Assembly (NCBI GenBank): GCA_015233035.1
Contig: JADFYM010000006.1
Coordinates: 1 to 43,357, forward strand
From: Magnetococcales bacterium
GTDB lineage: Bacteria; Pseudomonadota; Magnetococcia; Magnetococcales; Magnetaquicoccaceae
Length of the DNA stretch: 43,357 bases
Direction: 5' to 3'
The notes under the pieces were generated by a model. It saw only the letters and a list, made by a program, of their open reading frames with translations, was not told the origin of the DNA and ran no database searches. Positions 23,658 through 43,192 of this stretch are shown here, in pieces; the first letter of the stretch is position 1; each line of letters starts with the position of its first letter. The position numbers were made by a program, and so were the translations under genes.

Positions 23658-24188
23658 CTAATCTGTTCGAGATGACGAAAAAACAAACCCTTCCGAGGCC
23701 AGTTTGCGGAAGGCCGGGTTCGGGGACGAGCGCAGCAGACGGTCAATGATGGTGCGAAAGAGGGCGGGTGCCGTTTCGCGGTTGGTCAAGGCCAGCAACA
23801 GTTGGGTCATGGTCTTTTCCCGCTTTTTGGAATCCCGGTAGGGATGTTCATGAATCAGGCGGGAGATCATGGTCAAATAGGCGGACATGCCCCCAGCCAG
23901 ACTCTGCACCCGGAATTTTCTGGAAAATTTTTCTTGCAGATAAAGGCTGCCGTCCCCCTGGCCACAATAAAGCAAAAGGGTACGGGTGGCCAGTTGTGCA
24001 GCAAACCGGTTTTCGAATTCCCTGGTCCGTTCATCCAGATCCAGCAGATAGACCCGCTTGGAACCGGGGATGGCGGGATCTCCGTCGGCACTGCCGCGCA
24101 CATCAATCAGGATGGGGGCGGTGGGATTGGCCAAAAATTCTTCCATGGACATTTCGGCCCTGTGGCCATGAAAAAAAATATTAATCAT
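23658..24188 (-). CDS. Rhodanese-domain protein between two receptors
   Basis: 176 residues. The rhodanese fold is visible: [19 protein letters not shown], a central [18 protein letters not shown] with candidate catalytic Cys75, and [17 protein letters not shown]. The C-terminal 60 residues are extra: [25 protein letters not shown]. The ATG overlaps the stop of the upstream receptor by eight bases, and the next receptor starts ten bases downstream, so all three are co-translated. Sulfur transfer, redox sensing or a non-enzymatic docking role are all possible. A run of eight T lies just after the start codon. Confidence 0.8.
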
Positions 24189-26037
24189 AGGCTGTTCTGA
24201 GTGCCGGTTGGCCGGTTTGGAAAAAGGCGATGGTGCGGAGCATCAATTCGGCCTGGGCACTCAACTCTTCTGCCGTGGCCGCCATCTCCTCGGAGGCTCC
24301 CGCATTTTTCTGGATGACCTGATCCAGTTGTTGGATCGCCAGGTTGACCTGGGCGGCTCCCTGGTTTTGTTCCTGGCTGGCTGTGGCAATCTCCTGAATC
24401 AATTCTGCCGTCTTTTGAATGTCCGGCACCAGTTTGTGGATGATGGCTCCGGCCTTTTCGGCCACGGTGACGCTGGAGGTGGAGAGATGACTGATCTCTC
24501 CCGCCGCCGCCTGGCTGCGTTCGGCCAGCTTTCTGACCTCGGCGGCCACCACGGCAAACCCTTTGCCCTGTTCGCCCGCCCGTGCTGCCTCAATGGCGGC
24601 ATTCAAGGCCAGCAGGTTGGTTTGCCGGGCAATCTCTTCGATAATGCCAATCCGGGTCGCAATCTCGCGCATGGCGGTGACCGCCTCGCCCACCGCATGG
24701 CCACCGCTGGCGGCTTCCTTGGCCGCCTGCTGGGCAATGGTTTGGGTCCTCTGGGCGTTGTCGGTGTTTTGCTGAATGTTCGCTGCCATTTGCTCCATGG
24801 CCGCCGAGGTCTCCTCAATGGAGGCCGCCTGATCGGTGGCCCCACGGGCAAGCGTTTGGGCCGCATCGGAAATTTCGTTGCTGCCAACAGAAACCTGCTC
24901 GGCTGTCTCCGCTATTTCCCCGATAATTTCCCGCAGCTTGCCAGCCGTGGTCGATATGCCGGATGCCAGCAAGCCCAGTTCATCCCGGCCCCGCGCGCTG
25001 CAACCGATGGTCAGGTCACCCTGGGCGAGGCGGCCAAACATGCCGGTACACGTACCCAACGGGCGGGTAATACTGCGGGTGAGAAAAATGGTGACCAGCA
25101 GTCCCAGCAGCACGGCTCCCAGGCTGGAGCCAATCATGACCGTAACGGCACGCGCCATCTGGGCCGCCGACTCCTTCTGTTGACCGGCAATGGTCGCATT
25201 GATCTTTTCGTCTGCTGTCCGGCGCGCCACGACCATTTCCTGATCCATCCCCGCTTGGGCCTGGATGGTCTCCAGAATGACGTTCATCTCTTTTTGATAA
25301 CGTTCGATCCCACCGATCATCTTCTGGACATGTTCCCGGTCGGCGGGCGATGGCAAGGTGGGTTGCAGTGCGCGCGCAACCTGGAGTGCCATGGTGCTGG
25401 CTTCCCGGTTGCGCTGGATCGGGTCTTCGCTCTTGCCTTGGGCGAGCGCGGTATCTTTTTCGGCGGCGGCGGCGTCCTTGAAATAGGCGGTCAATTTTTG
25501 CAGTTGCTTTTCATCCTTGCCTTTGCTGAGAAGAATCTCTTTCTCTGCCGTGCGTGCCCGCTCGAACGAGATCAATATCTGCGCCGTTTCTCCCGGCAGA
25601 GCGGTGGCCGCAATGCGCACCAGACGGTCGGCCTCCTGGATGTGGGTCAGACCTTCGTTGCACTGTTTTTCGGTCGCCACATACCGCGCAAAAGCCTTGC
25701 CATATTTTTCCACCGCCGCCATGACTTCATCCATGCGCGTCTTGTCGGCGGGATCCTGAAATTTTTGATCCCGATCAATGATGGCCTGTTGCCGGATTTT
25801 TTCGACGGCTTTTTGATTGAGTTCCAGATATTTCATATCCTTGCGAATGACAAAATTTTTCTCTGCCCGCAAAGCCTCCCCCAGCGTATCACGCAGCACA
25901 CTCATATCCTGATTTTTGTCGGTGTGGTCCACCAGGCCAATCAGGCCATGATAGCCGGTGAGAGCCACCAGGACGGTCAAAAGCAGCACAACGCCAAAAC
26001 CCAGTCCGAGTCTGACGCCCAATTTTAAATTTTTCAT
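24181..26037 (-). CDS. Methyl-accepting chemotaxis protein, HBM-type sensor
   Basis: 618 residues, clearly paralogous to the receptor two genes downstream. N-terminal [26 protein letters not shown], an HBM-like periplasmic region ([24 protein letters not shown]), second helix [29 protein letters not shown], and a signalling domain with tip [33 protein letters not shown]. The sensor parts diverge more than the cytoplasmic parts, as expected after duplication with ligand change. ATG 26037 is chosen because it aligns exactly with the paralogue start. First gene of the receptor-rhodanese-receptor operon. Confidence 0.93.
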
Positions 26038-26263
26038 GGCTATCCCTTGAGTGACTGGTTTGTTAAGCAGGCCAGCATGTAACTGGAGACAACAATATCC
26101 GACGGATGGTACCAGGAAGAGGAGAAAGGGGTCAAGTTGGATGGGGACCAGTGCGCAGGGCCATCCCATGTAAAATGCCCGCCTTTCCTGGGACCGCAGG
26201 CGTCCCGCCCGCTTTTTCCTCTCGGTGCCATTGTTGTGGCGGGCGAAATGGGTGTGACCTCAG

Positions 26264-38076: not shown

Positions 38077-40251
38077 TCATTGACAAGACTGCTGCTCCAC
38101 CCAGGCCCGCACGAGACGTTGCGACTCGGTCAACTGGGCGCGGGTCATTTGTTGCGCCAGTCTGTCCCGGTCCTTGGCCGCCGTCTTGTAGCCGTTCATG
38201 GTGGAAAGCGTATACCACATGTGGGCGGCAACCGGGTCTTGCAATTGTCCCTGTTCGTCCCCGTACAGGGTGCCCAAATTGTTTTGCGCCTCGGCGTGGC
38301 CCTGTGCCGCCGCCTGACGATACCACCGCGCCGCCTCCTGTTCATCCTGGGGGAGACCATCCCCATAGGCGTACAGATTACCCAAATGATTTTGTGCCTC
38401 GGCGTGGCCCTGTTCCGCTGCCCGGCGATACCAGGAGACCGCCTCGGCATAATCGGTGGCCACCCCCCGCCCATCCCGATACCGGGTGCCCAGGCAATTC
38501 TGGGCGTGGGCATCATTCTGCCCGGCGGCCTTGCGATACCAATAACAGGCCTCCTTGTCGTCCTGGGGCAGGCCCCGACCTTCGGACAGGCGGTCAGCCA
38601 ACAGGGTTTGCGCCGCCACATGCCCGGCTTTGGCCGCATTACGACATAACAACAGGGCCTGTCGGTCGTCCTGGGGCACCCCCTGTCCTGCCCAGTAGAG
38701 GATGCCAAGCTGATATTGTGCTTCCAGGTTGCCCTGTTCCGCCGCCAGACGATACCAGCGGGCGGCCTCGGTCGGATCCTGGGGCACCCCCTGCCCGCTG
38801 GCATACAAGAGACCCAAACGCAGACGGGCCACCGCATTGCCCTGTTCCGCCGCCTTGCGATACCAGGCAGCGGCCTCGCGGCACTCCTGCGGGAGACCAC
38901 GGCCCTGCTCATAGTGCAGCCCCATGTTCAACTGGGCACCCGGGTGGCCTTGCGCGGCGGCCTTGCGGTACCAGAAAACGGCCTCCTTGTCATCCGCGCC
39001 ACCTGCCTCGCGCGTGCTGCCCTGTTTCTCGCCGGTCTCCGGGCGGAGCACGCCGATGCCATTGGCGAGACAATTGCCGAGATTGTTCTGGGCGATGGCA
39101 TGGCCCTGTTCGGCGGCCTGACGATACCAGAAGGCTGCCTCATCCGCCGACCGGGGCACCCCCTTGCCACTGCGGCAGAGGTTGCCGAGATTGTTTTGGG
39201 CATTGGCGTGGCCCTGTTTGGCCGCCTGACGATACCAGTCGGCGGCCTCTTGATAATCCTGGGCAACCCCCTGGCCCTCCGCATAGCGGGCACCAAGGCT
39301 GCTTTGCGCGCCAGCATGGCCCTGCCTGGCGGCTTTCAGATACCATGAGACGGCCTGCTGATCATCTTGTGGCACCCCCTGACCCTTGTGATACAGGGTG
39401 CCCAGCGTATATTGGGCCTCGGCATGGTCGGCCTCCGCTGCCTTGCGGTACCAGGTCATGGCTTCCCGTTCGTCCAGAGGGAGACCCTGGCCTTTGCTGT
39501 AGGCCTGCCCCAGGAGAAACTGGGCGCAGGCGTCCTTTTGTTCGGCGGCCTTGTAATACCAGTAGACCGCCTCTTCGGGATTTTGGGCCACGCCGCGCCC
39601 CTGGGCATAGGTCAGGCCGAGTTGGACCTGGGCGGTGGTGTTGCCTTGTTCGGCGGCTTTTTGATACCAGGCCAGCCGTTCCCGATCATTCTGAAACAAC
39701 TCCTGGCCACTGGCATACAGGGCATCCAGGGCAGACTGGGCCCCGCGATGTCCCTGGAGGGCGGCCTTGCTGTACCAGTCGGCGGCCTCCTGGTCATTTT
39801 TCGGGGTGCCCTGGCCGGTGCTGATCATCTGGCCGAGGCTGAACTGGGCATCGGCATTTCCTTGTTCCGCCGCCTTGCGGTACCAGACCACCGCCTCCGC
39901 AGGATCCTGAGCCGTGCCCTGGCCGTTGCAATAGATATGACCCAGGAACAGTTGATGCTCCGCATGACCCTGTTCAGCGGCCTGGCGATACCAGAAAACC
40001 GCCTGTTCGCCCTCTGGTGGCACACCCTCCCCATCGCTGTAGAGATCACCCAAAAATAATTGGGCCTCCAACACACCCTGTTCGGCGGCCTGGCGTCCCC
40101 ACCGGAGGGCCTCGGCATAATCCTGGGCGGTCCCTTTGCCCTCACTATAGCAGACCGCCAGCTTGAACTGGGCGACCGCATCGCCTTGCTGGGCCAGGGT
40201 ACGCAGTTCGTCAACAGACGGTTGGCGGGTCTTTCTCAAAATGGCTGCCAT
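38077..40251 (-). CDS. Sel1-like repeat protein with 18 repeats
   Basis: 724 residues made almost wholly of 36-residue Sel1 units (consensus AQ-x2-LG-x-LY-x-x-GxGVPQD-x-x-EA-x-WYRKAAEQGHAE). I count 18, followed by a C-terminal cap ending VEQQSCQ. Unit 11 carries an extra loop of about 18 residues (ETGEKQGSTREAGGADDK). No signal peptide: it starts MAAILRKTRQPSVDELRTLA, so a cytoplasmic scaffold is expected. ATG 40251 has GGAGAAG upstream. It precedes the sensor kinase and HD-GYP regulator on the same strand, suggesting a scaffold in that pathway. Confidence 0.93.
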   Translation of the reverse strand: MAAILRKTRQPSVDELRTLAQQGDAVAQFKLAVCYSEGKGTAQDYAEALRWGRQAAEQGVLEAQLFLGDLYSDGEGVPPEGEQAVFWYRQAAEQGHAEHQLFLGHIYCNGQGTAQDPAEAVVWYRKAAEQGNADAQFSLGQMISTGQGTPKNDQEAADWYSKAALQGHRGAQSALDALYASGQELFQNDRERLAWYQKAAEQGNTTAQVQLGLTYAQGRGVAQNPEEAVYWYYKAAEQKDACAQFLLGQAYSKGQGLPLDEREAMTWYRKAAEADHAEAQYTLGTLYHKGQGVPQDDQQAVSWYLKAARQGHAGAQSSLGARYAEGQGVAQDYQEAADWYRQAAKQGHANAQNNLGNLCRSGKGVPRSADEAAFWYRQAAEQGHAIAQNNLGNCLANGIGVLRPETGEKQGSTREAGGADDKEAVFWYRKAAAQGHPGAQLNMGLHYEQGRGLPQECREAAAWYRKAAEQGNAVARLRLGLLYASGQGVPQDPTEAARWYRLAAEQGNLEAQYQLGILYWAGQGVPQDDRQALLLCRNAAKAGHVAAQTLLADRLSEGRGLPQDDKEACYWYRKAAGQNDAHAQNCLGTRYRDGRGVATDYAEAVSWYRRAAEQGHAEAQNHLGNLYAYGDGLPQDEQEAARWYRQAAAQGHAEAQNNLGTLYGDEQGQLQDPVAAHMWYTLSTMNGYKTAAKDRDRLAQQMTRAQLTESQRLVRAWVEQQSCQ

Positions 40252-40375
40252 CGCTTCTCCTTTAAAACGGCGTGAACCGGGTTCATGGTAACACAGAGTG
40301 GGTCGTTTTAAACGCTTCCAACTAACTGACTGCCACTTTTTCCTCAGACACAACCTGAAAAAGTTGAAATCACAA

Positions 40376-40524: not shown

Positions 40525-40607
40525 GATAAAATGAAACTGTTGCCATGCATCCATCTTTTACATCAGGTGGTTCTGTCTGGTATGATGGGGGCGCGTTGGT
40601 GGTAGGG

Positions 40608-40817
40608 CCTTGATCATCATTTCGTCCACGAACTCTCCTGGATGCCCGCCTTCGCGGGCATGACGGGAATGGGTATGACACGAAATTCGCTCGTCATTCC
40701 CGCGAAGGCGGGAATCCAGGGTCAGATTGCTGGCCTCGATCAACTCGCCCAACGTCATTCCCGCGAAGGCGGGAATCCAGGGTTCTGACTGGAATGGCCG
40801 AAACGATGATCAAGGCC
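40608..40817. mobile_element. Family C MITE-like element, copy 4, with perfect 10-bp duplication
   Basis: 210 bp bounded by CCTTGATCATCATTTCG and CGAAACGATGATCAAGGCC. It contains three palindromes because one unit (CGTCATTCCCGC...CCAGGGT) is duplicated at 40692-40722 and 40755-40784. It is flanked on both sides by GGTGGTAGGG (40598-40607, 40818-40827), a perfect direct repeat. It lies directly upstream of the ion-channel gene. Confidence 0.82.
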
Positions 40818-40966
40818 GGTGGTAGGGATACCGTCCACTTCCAGGTTTATCAGGTTGATGACTCGTCAGCGGTTTGGCATCGCTCCACGGTTTTGCTTTT
40901 GCTGTTGGTTTGCGCCCCTGCGGGGGGGCATCATGTTCCGGCTATCTGTCCAGGGAGAAATTGTCT

Positions 40967-43192
40967 ATGCTTCGTTCGATTATTGCGGTGATTGCCTTTC
41001 TGACGTGCTTGTCCTCGACTGTAGCGATGGCCGATACTTTTCGGATCGGCGTACTGGTTCCCCTGTCGGGGGACAAGGCGGAAAAAGGCGTACCGATAAA
41101 AAACGCCGTCGCCTTGTTTGCCGAACGCTTCAATGACCAGGCCACCGGCAGCAAGCTTGAACTGGTGGTCAAGGACGATTTCGACGACCCGGACAAGGCA
41201 CGCGCCGCTGCCATCGAGTTGGTCAAGGATCCGTCGCTGTTGGCGGTGGTCGGCCACTACTACCCTGATGCTGCCATGGCCACCGCCAAGGTATTCTCCG
41301 ACGCTCATGTTCCTTTCATCTCGCCCAACGTCAGCAATCCCGAGGTTTTCCGTGGCAATCCGTGGGCCTTCACCGCCAATATCCCGGACGATGCCCAGGG
41401 AGCCTTCATTGCCACATACATCAAAGAGGTACTGAAGAAAGACAACGTGTTGGTTGTACACACCACCGACCCGTTCGGAGTCGCTCTCAAAGAGGCCTTC
41501 CTGGCCAAGGCGGGCCGCATCGGGCTCAAGGTGCTGAAGGAGCAGGGGGTGGACAAGAACGCCACCCTGGCCAAGGACTGGGCCGCCACTGCCTTCCCTG
41601 ACAAGGCTGCCAACGCCCAGATCGGCGTTGTTGCCGCACTGACCCACAGTGAGGTGGGCCTGCAATTTCTGCCGCAACTGCGCGACATCGGCATTGCCAC
41701 ACCGGTGATGGCCGCCAACACATGGTCCAATCCACGCATCCTCAAGGAACTCAACGAAAAGGTCACCAATGATGTCTATCTGACCTCGGCTTTCCTGTGG
41801 GAGATCGCCAATCAAAAGGCATCGCACTTCGCAACCGCCTATGCGAAAAAATTCGGTGATCGCCCCTCGATTGCCGCCGCCATGGCCTATGACTCGATGG
41901 AGTTGCTGAGTGGGGCCATGGCCAGCAGCACCAAACCAACACGGGAGAGCATACGCAACCATTTGGCTGGCATCGACTGGCACCATTTTGTCGAAGGGGT
42001 GACCGGCAATCTGTTCTTCAAGAACGGTCGAGCCATGTCGGCTGAATGGGTTGACAAATATCTGCACGATAATGGCCAGCCACCGGCCCCGCCGCCGATC
42101 AGGGATCTGACGGTGCAGGCGGCGGAACGCGATATCTTCGTTGCGATGATCAGGGACGGTCGTTTCAAGGTCGCCTCGGTGCAACTGGTACAACCACACG
42201 AGGCTTACGTGCTCAAAGAGTTGGGGGAACGGATCGGTAAAGGACAGTTGCTCCTGGTTGACGGAGAGCCTTTTCACGTGGTTGATGCGGTGTTTGTCGG
42301 CGTCGACATCATCCGCATCAACGACGTCAACATCAAGGACATGCTGTGGGACGCCGACATGTTCATGTGGTTCAAGTGGGGCGGTCCCCGTCTGGATCCC
42401 AAGGATATCGAGAAGATCACCGCCGTCAATGCGGTCAAGGAACAGGCGACACTGCTCAAGGAGGATCTGTCGCATGCCACCAAGTACCGCGCCTATCGCA
42501 AGCGTCTGACACTTGGGGTGTCGTTCGATTTGTCCTCCTTTCCCTTCGATTCACAGGTTCTGCCGCTGCAAATCGCCCACGCGAATAAAAACTCGACTCA
42601 CATCATGTTGGTTCCAGATACGCGGCACATGGAAACAGGGCCGGTCACGGATGTAAAACCACAGGAGTGGACTTACATAAAGCGGGCGGTTTTCTCGGAC
42701 CTTTTTCGCTATGAATCGACCTTTGGCGACCCTGACTACCGCATGGGTACTGGCTACAAGAGCCCAGTTTATTTCTCCACGGTCAACCTGGAAATCGAAC
42801 TGAAGCGGATGATCAAGCCTTACCTGTTCACCTTTTTCCTGCCGCTGCTGATCATCCTCGGCATCATACTTCTGGTGCTGTGGGTACCGCTCGACCAGTT
42901 CGCTCCGCGCATCAACGCCGCCATTTCTGGTCTGATCGGTGTACTGGTCTATCATATGTCGCAGAAAAACTCGTTCCCCAAGGTCGGGTATACGATGACT
43001 GCCGACTACTATTTCCTGATCGCTTATGCCTTCGTGGTTGCGATGATCATATGTATCATCATTACCCAGACCATGATGTCGGCCGGTCAGAAAGATCTGG
43101 CCAAGGGATGGAACAAGAAACTGAGCTATGGTGCCTTGATCGCCGTCGTCTGCATCTATGGAGTAGTCACTCTGCTTTCCGTACTCACATGA
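40967..43192 (+). CDS. Periplasmic-binding-protein / pentameric ligand-gated ion channel fusion
   Basis: 741 residues. Signal peptide 1-22 (IIAVIAFLTCLSSTVAMA). Residues about 24-370 form a type I periplasmic binding protein of the branched-chain amino-acid/ANF-receptor class: TFRIGVLVPLSGDKAEKG, LLAVVGHYYPDAAMATAKVF, NVLVVHTTDPFG, AAAMAYDSMELL. After a PPAPPP linker (372-377), about 385-615 is a Cys-loop-type extracellular domain with the Pro-loop core FPFDSQVLPLQI (525-536). M1 about 617-640 (PYLFTFFLPLLIILGIILL), M2 about 646-666, M3 about 680-703 and M4 about 720-740 complete the channel. ATG 40967 has GGGAG upstream. Presumably an inner-membrane pentamer gated by a periplasmic solute; ligand and ion are inferred. 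Confidence 0.92.
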   Translation: MLRSIIAVIAFLTCLSSTVAMADTFRIGVLVPLSGDKAEKGVPIKNAVALFAERFNDQATGSKLELVVKDDFDDPDKARAAAIELVKDPSLLAVVGHYYPDAAMATAKVFSDAHVPFISPNVSNPEVFRGNPWAFTANIPDDAQGAFIATYIKEVLKKDNVLVVHTTDPFGVALKEAFLAKAGRIGLKVLKEQGVDKNATLAKDWAATAFPDKAANAQIGVVAALTHSEVGLQFLPQLRDIGIATPVMAANTWSNPRILKELNEKVTNDVYLTSAFLWEIANQKASHFATAYAKKFGDRPSIAAAMAYDSMELLSGAMASSTKPTRESIRNHLAGIDWHHFVEGVTGNLFFKNGRAMSAEWVDKYLHDNGQPPAPPPIRDLTVQAAERDIFVAMIRDGRFKVASVQLVQPHEAYVLKELGERIGKGQLLLVDGEPFHVVDAVFVGVDIIRINDVNIKDMLWDADMFMWFKWGGPRLDPKDIEKITAVNAVKEQATLLKEDLSHATKYRAYRKRLTLGVSFDLSSFPFDSQVLPLQIAHANKNSTHIMLVPDTRHMETGPVTDVKPQEWTYIKRAVFSDLFRYESTFGDPDYRMGTGYKSPVYFSTVNLEIELKRMIKPYLFTFFLPLLIILGIILLVLWVPLDQFAPRINAAISGLIGVLVYHMSQKNSFPKVGYTMTADYYFLIAYAFVVAMIICIIITQTMMSAGQKDLAKGWNKKLSYGALIAVVCIYGVVTLLSVLT

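Follow-up and report, generated by a model that had tools for sequence, protein, structure and literature searches.

A gene close to the end of a contig from a Magnetococcales bacterium raises the question of whether a solute-binding protein and an ion channel can work as one polypeptide and, if so, what opens the pore. The first-pass annotation read it as a signal peptide, a whole type I periplasmic binding protein (PBP) and a whole pentameric ligand-gated ion channel (pLGIC) in a single frame. This reading held in the window (the whole stretch of DNA analysed, 43,357 nucleotides). The gene occupies 40967–43192 on the forward strand (741 codons plus TGA), its frame runs uninterrupted from ATG to TGA to give a product of 741 amino acids, and both folds were recovered. 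A Shine-Dalgarno-like AGGGAG, identified from the sequence, lies nine bases 5' of the ATG (40952–40957, forward strand). The features of the gene described below are all on the forward strand.

Relatives of the gene and their neighbours

Class A, the rare branch to which the window gene belongs, consists of the window gene, L002, L059, L003/L060 and L004/L061, and the earlier suggestion that the same architecture be sought in other genomes was thus borne out, in other assemblies. The channel of the window protein is 66% identical to that of L002 and 73% identical to that of L059, and the PBP of L059 is 57% identical. The closest named homologue, L059 (JAJAYN010000016.1), comes from a contig of 6 kb in a MAG catalogued under Burkholderiales. 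Either lateral transfer or mis-binning may explain this placement, the two being indistinguishable. Comparison of the window gene with L059 gave dN values of 0.17–0.31 and dS values of about 2–3 (saturated) in the PBP, the ligand-binding domain (LBD) and the transmembrane (TM) part. All three domains are under purifying selection.

These data also bear on the reading of the gene as an artefact, in which assembly joined the binding protein gene of an ABC transporter to a channel gene in a chimeric contig. The draft assembly is in 434 contigs, which leaves room for such a join, but the probability of this reading is vanishingly small. No frameshift or join was found in the intact frame, homologous fusions (L002, L059, L060 and L061) are present elsewhere, and the gene is under purifying selection. 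The chimera was rejected on these grounds, the occurrence of the identical architecture in other assemblies excluding it.

A second group, class B, is widespread in Magnetococcales, has a channel with about 22% identity to that of the window protein, and apparently carries an N-terminal membrane anchor. The window's own genome has a class B paralogue (G000:C392; L034:3080-6844). Among the loci outside Magnetococcales that were read in a 398-genome sample of the phylum, a set that leaves out a few other long frames (G356, G403), only those in G164 and G243 combine a PBP and a channel. Searches of plasmids and phages returned channel matches that were partial (Azospirillum) or, among the matches listed, covered the PBP half only. 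A Pfam search of the window's own genome with Neur_chan_LBD gave zero matches, but as the same model missed all controls too, this negative carries no weight.

At every class B locus with downstream sequence (19/19, in 17 genomes; L034, L066-L083), an MCP-like gene comes next on the same strand with nothing in between, which suggests that the class B channel and this chemoreceptor-like gene form a conserved pair. The signalling tip of the MCP-like product is degenerate and departs from the canonical form. The partner belongs to class B; class A genes are without such a neighbour, 165 bp being visible downstream of the window gene. The contig ends at this distance past the stop codon and the 3' neighbourhood lies beyond it, and the description of the gene as standing alone had to be withdrawn.

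Several other features of the neighbourhoods were recorded. The divergent upstream gene in the window (38077–40353, reverse strand) encodes a 758-aa protein made almost entirely of Sel1 repeats, and the L059 contig likewise has a Sel1 protein upstream. The promoter-side gap of the window contains, at 40606–40817, two 31-nt copies of CGTCATTCCCGCGAAGGCGGGAATCCAGGGT, a further copy in inverse orientation, and inverted repeats of 23 nt at either end, a palindromic cluster that looks like a small REP/MITE element. An ordinary MCP with HAMP and MCPsignal domains (E = 1e-32) is encoded at 24181–26169 on the reverse strand, so canonical chemoreceptors are present as well. In G011 (L030:7418-10925), the 3' end of the PBP-channel gene is overlapped by the next gene downstream, which has the same orientation and encodes a short PBP-less LBD-4TM protein, a possible heteromeric partner. 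In nW5bin1, two genes of the voltage-gated-channel family (Ion_trans) lie immediately upstream of the class A gene on the same strand (L060:7118-8821). The same search found no Ion_trans genes around L032, the closest relative of L060, and for this reason these neighbours were dropped as evidence.

Ligand pocket, channel fold and pore

The signal peptide MLRSIIAVIAFLTCLSSTVAMA (residues 1–22; 40967–41032) was read from the sequence, and the model has a helix at residues 2–16. The type I PBP follows at residues 23–407 (41033–42187). Peripla_BP_6 matched residues 25–356 with an E-value of 2.2e-45 (156 bits against a Pfam cut-off of 31.7), PDB sequences similar to the first half were LIVBP-type proteins (3hut, E = 4e-25), and Foldseek recovered the two-lobe type I fold, again with 3hut (4.6e-17). 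The Pro-rich residues 372–377 had been taken for an interdomain hinge. They lie in a variable Pro-rich insert at about residues 366–388 (42062–42130), which is missing in L060/L061 and in class B and is longer in L059. In the alignment, the window protein, L002 and L059 have a Pro- or Ala-rich insert of varying length ahead of the final PBP strand, whereas the preceding element joins that strand directly in class B and L003/L004. Because the insert-less relatives continue straight into the last strand, the Pro-rich stretch 373–378 is a loop within the PBP, and the hinge was abandoned.

The ligand pocket was compared in an alignment of 32 PBP sequences including LivJ, whose sequence was confirmed to be identical to 1z15. 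The LivJ residues that contact the alpha-amino and carboxyl groups of the ligand are taken here to be S79, A100, T102, Y150 and E226. All five are replaced in the window PBP (S79 by P, A100 by N, T102 by S, Y150 by F and E226 by N), which consequently has none of the S79, T102, Y150 and E226 set expected of an LIVBP-type amino-acid binder; the same four are retained in 18/18 class B PBPs. With these contacts replaced, gating of the window protein by an amino acid is unsupported, contrary to the amino-acid-type ligand proposed at first. To judge by these residues, a plain alpha-amino acid is unlikely to be its ligand but is a plausible one for class B.

Between the PBP and the channel lies a coupler of about residues 408–435 (42188–42271), predicted as a helix and a strand. 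It was placed by alignment, is conserved across the classes, and has low confidence in the AlphaFold model (pLDDT of about 40–60). The pLGIC extracellular domain (ECD) extends over residues 436–613 (42272–42805), as placed by profile alignments to GLIC and ELIC, and forms a beta sandwich in the model. Its Pro-loop FDLSSFPFDSQVLPLQIAHA (residues 520–539; 42524–42583) aligns with those of ELIC and GLIC and has no Cys on either side, and hence lacks the Cys pair of a eukaryotic-type Cys-loop. The motifs FPFDSQ at 525–530 and LKRMIKPY preceding M1 also align with pLGICs. About 18 residues around beta4/loop A that are found in GLIC and ELIC are absent from the channel profile, which was built from residues 403–741 and six loci. 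The PBP-less relatives are similarly shortened there.

Assignment of the channel half was made by profile and by structure. Of the Pfam domains that the first-pass annotation had named for a search, Peripla_BP_6 was recovered; Neur_chan_memb (E = 0.0019) and Neur_chan_LBD (E = 0.027) both fell below the Pfam cut-offs. A phmmer search of the PDB matched ELIC at residues 519–720 (E = 8e-10), and the channel profile matched a GLIC-GlyR chimera (E = 1e-27) and ELIC (2e-23) over nearly its full length. A channel-only AlphaFold model, made as a single chain from six sequences, combines a beta sandwich with four helices (pLDDT 76, pTM 0.66), and its best PDB matches in Foldseek are GABA-A, GlyR, ELIC and GLIC with a TM-score of about 0.7. 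The channel half does therefore adopt the pLGIC fold, as had been proposed. The full-length model with four sequences (pLDDT 46) is too shallow for the channel, and the contact between PBP and LBD lies beyond that model.

The model helices M1 (residues 617–639; 42815–42883), M3 (678–705; 42998–43081) and M4 (709–740; 43091–43186) have a short link between the last two, and the pore helix M2 (645–665; 42899–42961) was placed by an ungapped alignment to M2 of GlyR. In this register the window M2 has A-2', P-1', R0', N2', S6', I9', V13', M16' and K19', and L002 and L059 have the same residues except for V at 9'. None of these three proteins has the acid at -1' or -2' of a cation-selective pore. 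The M2 of L003/L004 has D-2' and K0', and its 19' residue is not basic. Tasneem et al. have given a rule in which an acid-basic pair denotes cations and an Ala-basic pair anions (PMC549065). By this rule the window pore, having no acid at -2' or -1', is anion-like, and D-2' makes L003/L004 cation-like. Jaiteh et al. have found their phylogeny to be no guide to selectivity beyond the Cys-loop clade, and because of this the anion-type reading has the standing of a prediction. The window pore is predicted to be anion-preferring or non-selective.

Possible exchange of the pore among relatives

Proteins of about 1040 aa, in which a PBP and a pLGIC-like LBD are followed by an MscS-type channel replacing the four-helix pore, were found in the sister genus and in other Magnetococcales families (L028:121-3243, L027, L025, L024, L017, L029, L110, L111 and L113). 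They match Peripla_BP_6 and MS_channel_2nd (1e-12 to 1e-18), and a coupler-like segment precedes their LBD also. Their middle domain matched the class A/B channel profile with 99.3% probability (E = 1.8e-20); in the PDB it had no direct pLGIC match. A literature search did not find an MscS pore fused to such a domain, most subscription journals being outside its coverage. An unrooted tree of 29 ligand-binding domains, which has long branches, separated the PBP-fused domains (class A, class B, L102 and the MscS-fused group) from the PBP-less ones with support of 100/99, and placed the MscS-fused group with class A and L102 (90/87). This topology fits a history in which PBP and LBD were joined once and the pore was exchanged later. 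Because the PBP-fused LBDs group together and the coupler is kept with the MscS pore, the PBP, coupler and LBD seem to act as a unit.

A bolder proposal would treat the PBP and the pLGIC ECD as a portable receiver able to gate any pore attached to it. The four-helix pore would then be anion-selective and gated by the clamshell, in response to a solute other than an amino acid and without use of the inter-subunit site; the sisters would use the MscS pore, and some branches would be wired to chemotaxis. Taken as a whole, this proposal is rather unlikely.

Proposed gating and comparison with known systems

The domain make-up finds support, as does the suggestion that every subunit of a channel opened by a solute bears its own clamshell; the pentamer and its gating are inferred. 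The window protein is somewhat more probably than otherwise a subunit of an inner-membrane ligand-gated channel, probably homopentameric, that has one clamshell per subunit and is gated by a solute through the coupler. A small solute would shut the periplasmic LIVBP-type clamshell. Its motion would, as the fold implies, be passed through the coupler (408–435) to the pLGIC ECD and Pro-loop and from there to M1/M2 and the M2-M3 region. The pore, with its predicted anion-preferring or non-selective character, would then open, and the ion flux would presumably be the sensory signal, as was suggested for bacterial ART-LGICs in 2004. The MCP-like neighbour of class B is the sensory context of a sister class and is counted in favour of the sensory reading, while its tie to class B and not to the window gene weighs on the other side.

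Other roles for the PBP have been considered. Tasneem et al. (PMC549065) have put forward that it merely captures and concentrates a ligand, and that the agonist opens the pore from the ordinary inter-subunit site of the ECD. Enough of the LBD is present for it to fold in the model, but about 18 residues around beta4/loop A of the canonical site are missing and the PBP-coupler-LBD unit was retained when the pore was swapped, so that this role is improbable. The same low probability is given to a modulatory or assembly role, the channel responding mainly to some other stimulus (e.g., pH or divalent ions, on the pattern of GLIC or DeCLIC). The regulatory, calcium-sensitive N-terminal domain (NTD) of DeCLIC (PMC9897478, PMC12664993) is a precedent, and the pocket has lost the standard ligand contacts; an altered pocket is, however, also compatible with a new ligand, and the PBP is present across the whole group and under purifying selection. 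Slightly less probable again is a channel that forms as a heteromer only, with a short PBP-less subunit or the class B paralogue. Such a short gene overlaps the PBP-channel gene in G011 and the paralogue is present in the window's genome, but a short subunit was sought and found neither in that genome nor beside L059, and the paralogue's channel is just about 22% identical. Gating by a solute through the clamshells of the subunits is preferred to these alternatives.

As of PMC4795631, a biological role was known for no pLGIC of a unicellular organism. In the literature that was covered, neither a structural or functional study of a clamshell-fused pLGIC nor a tested member of the fusion was found, and no description was met with of the pairing with an MCP-like gene, of the relatives that have an MscS pore, or of the features that this branch shows in its pore and pocket. 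In the receptors of this branch the sensor domain is easily screened for ligands, and the relatives provide handles in the conserved MCP-like gene pair and in a natural swap between the pLGIC pore and that of MscS. Should the pore turn out to be anion-selective, it would bear on the origin of anion selectivity outside the Cys-loop clade.

The architecture itself is no surprise, as the same fusion was already published in 2004, when Tasneem et al. reported PBP-I domains fused to pLGICs in Magnetospirillum and Bradyrhizobium (PMC549065). The window protein belongs to the class as they defined it, with a PBP-I directly N-terminal to a pLGIC core in one chain. The fusions of Magnetospirillum magnetotacticum and Bradyrhizobium japonicum have their parts arranged as in the window protein (signal peptide, then PBP type I, then pLGIC ECD and four TM helices) but in other hosts; the likeness drawn here is one of described architecture. 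LivJ/LivK and other Peripla_BP_6 binding proteins share the whole PBP type I fold of residues 23–407, but those of the LivJ/LivK type serve an ABC transporter, whereas the window PBP is joined to a channel and has its alpha-amino-acid contacts replaced. ELIC and GLIC have in common with the window protein the ECD, the Pro-loop PFDSQ, four helices and a short M3-M4 link. They have no N-terminal domain, and the window protein differs in being without the residues at beta4/loop A and in having no acid at -1'/-2'. DeCLIC from Desulfofustis likewise carries an extra periplasmic domain ahead of the pLGIC core, but the lobes of its NTD relate to other regulatory domains and not to an LIVBP-type clamshell. 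Ionotropic glutamate receptors and class C GPCRs also place a clamshell on a membrane receptor; this is an analogy of layout, as the pore of the former and the 7TM core of the latter are unrelated to pLGICs.
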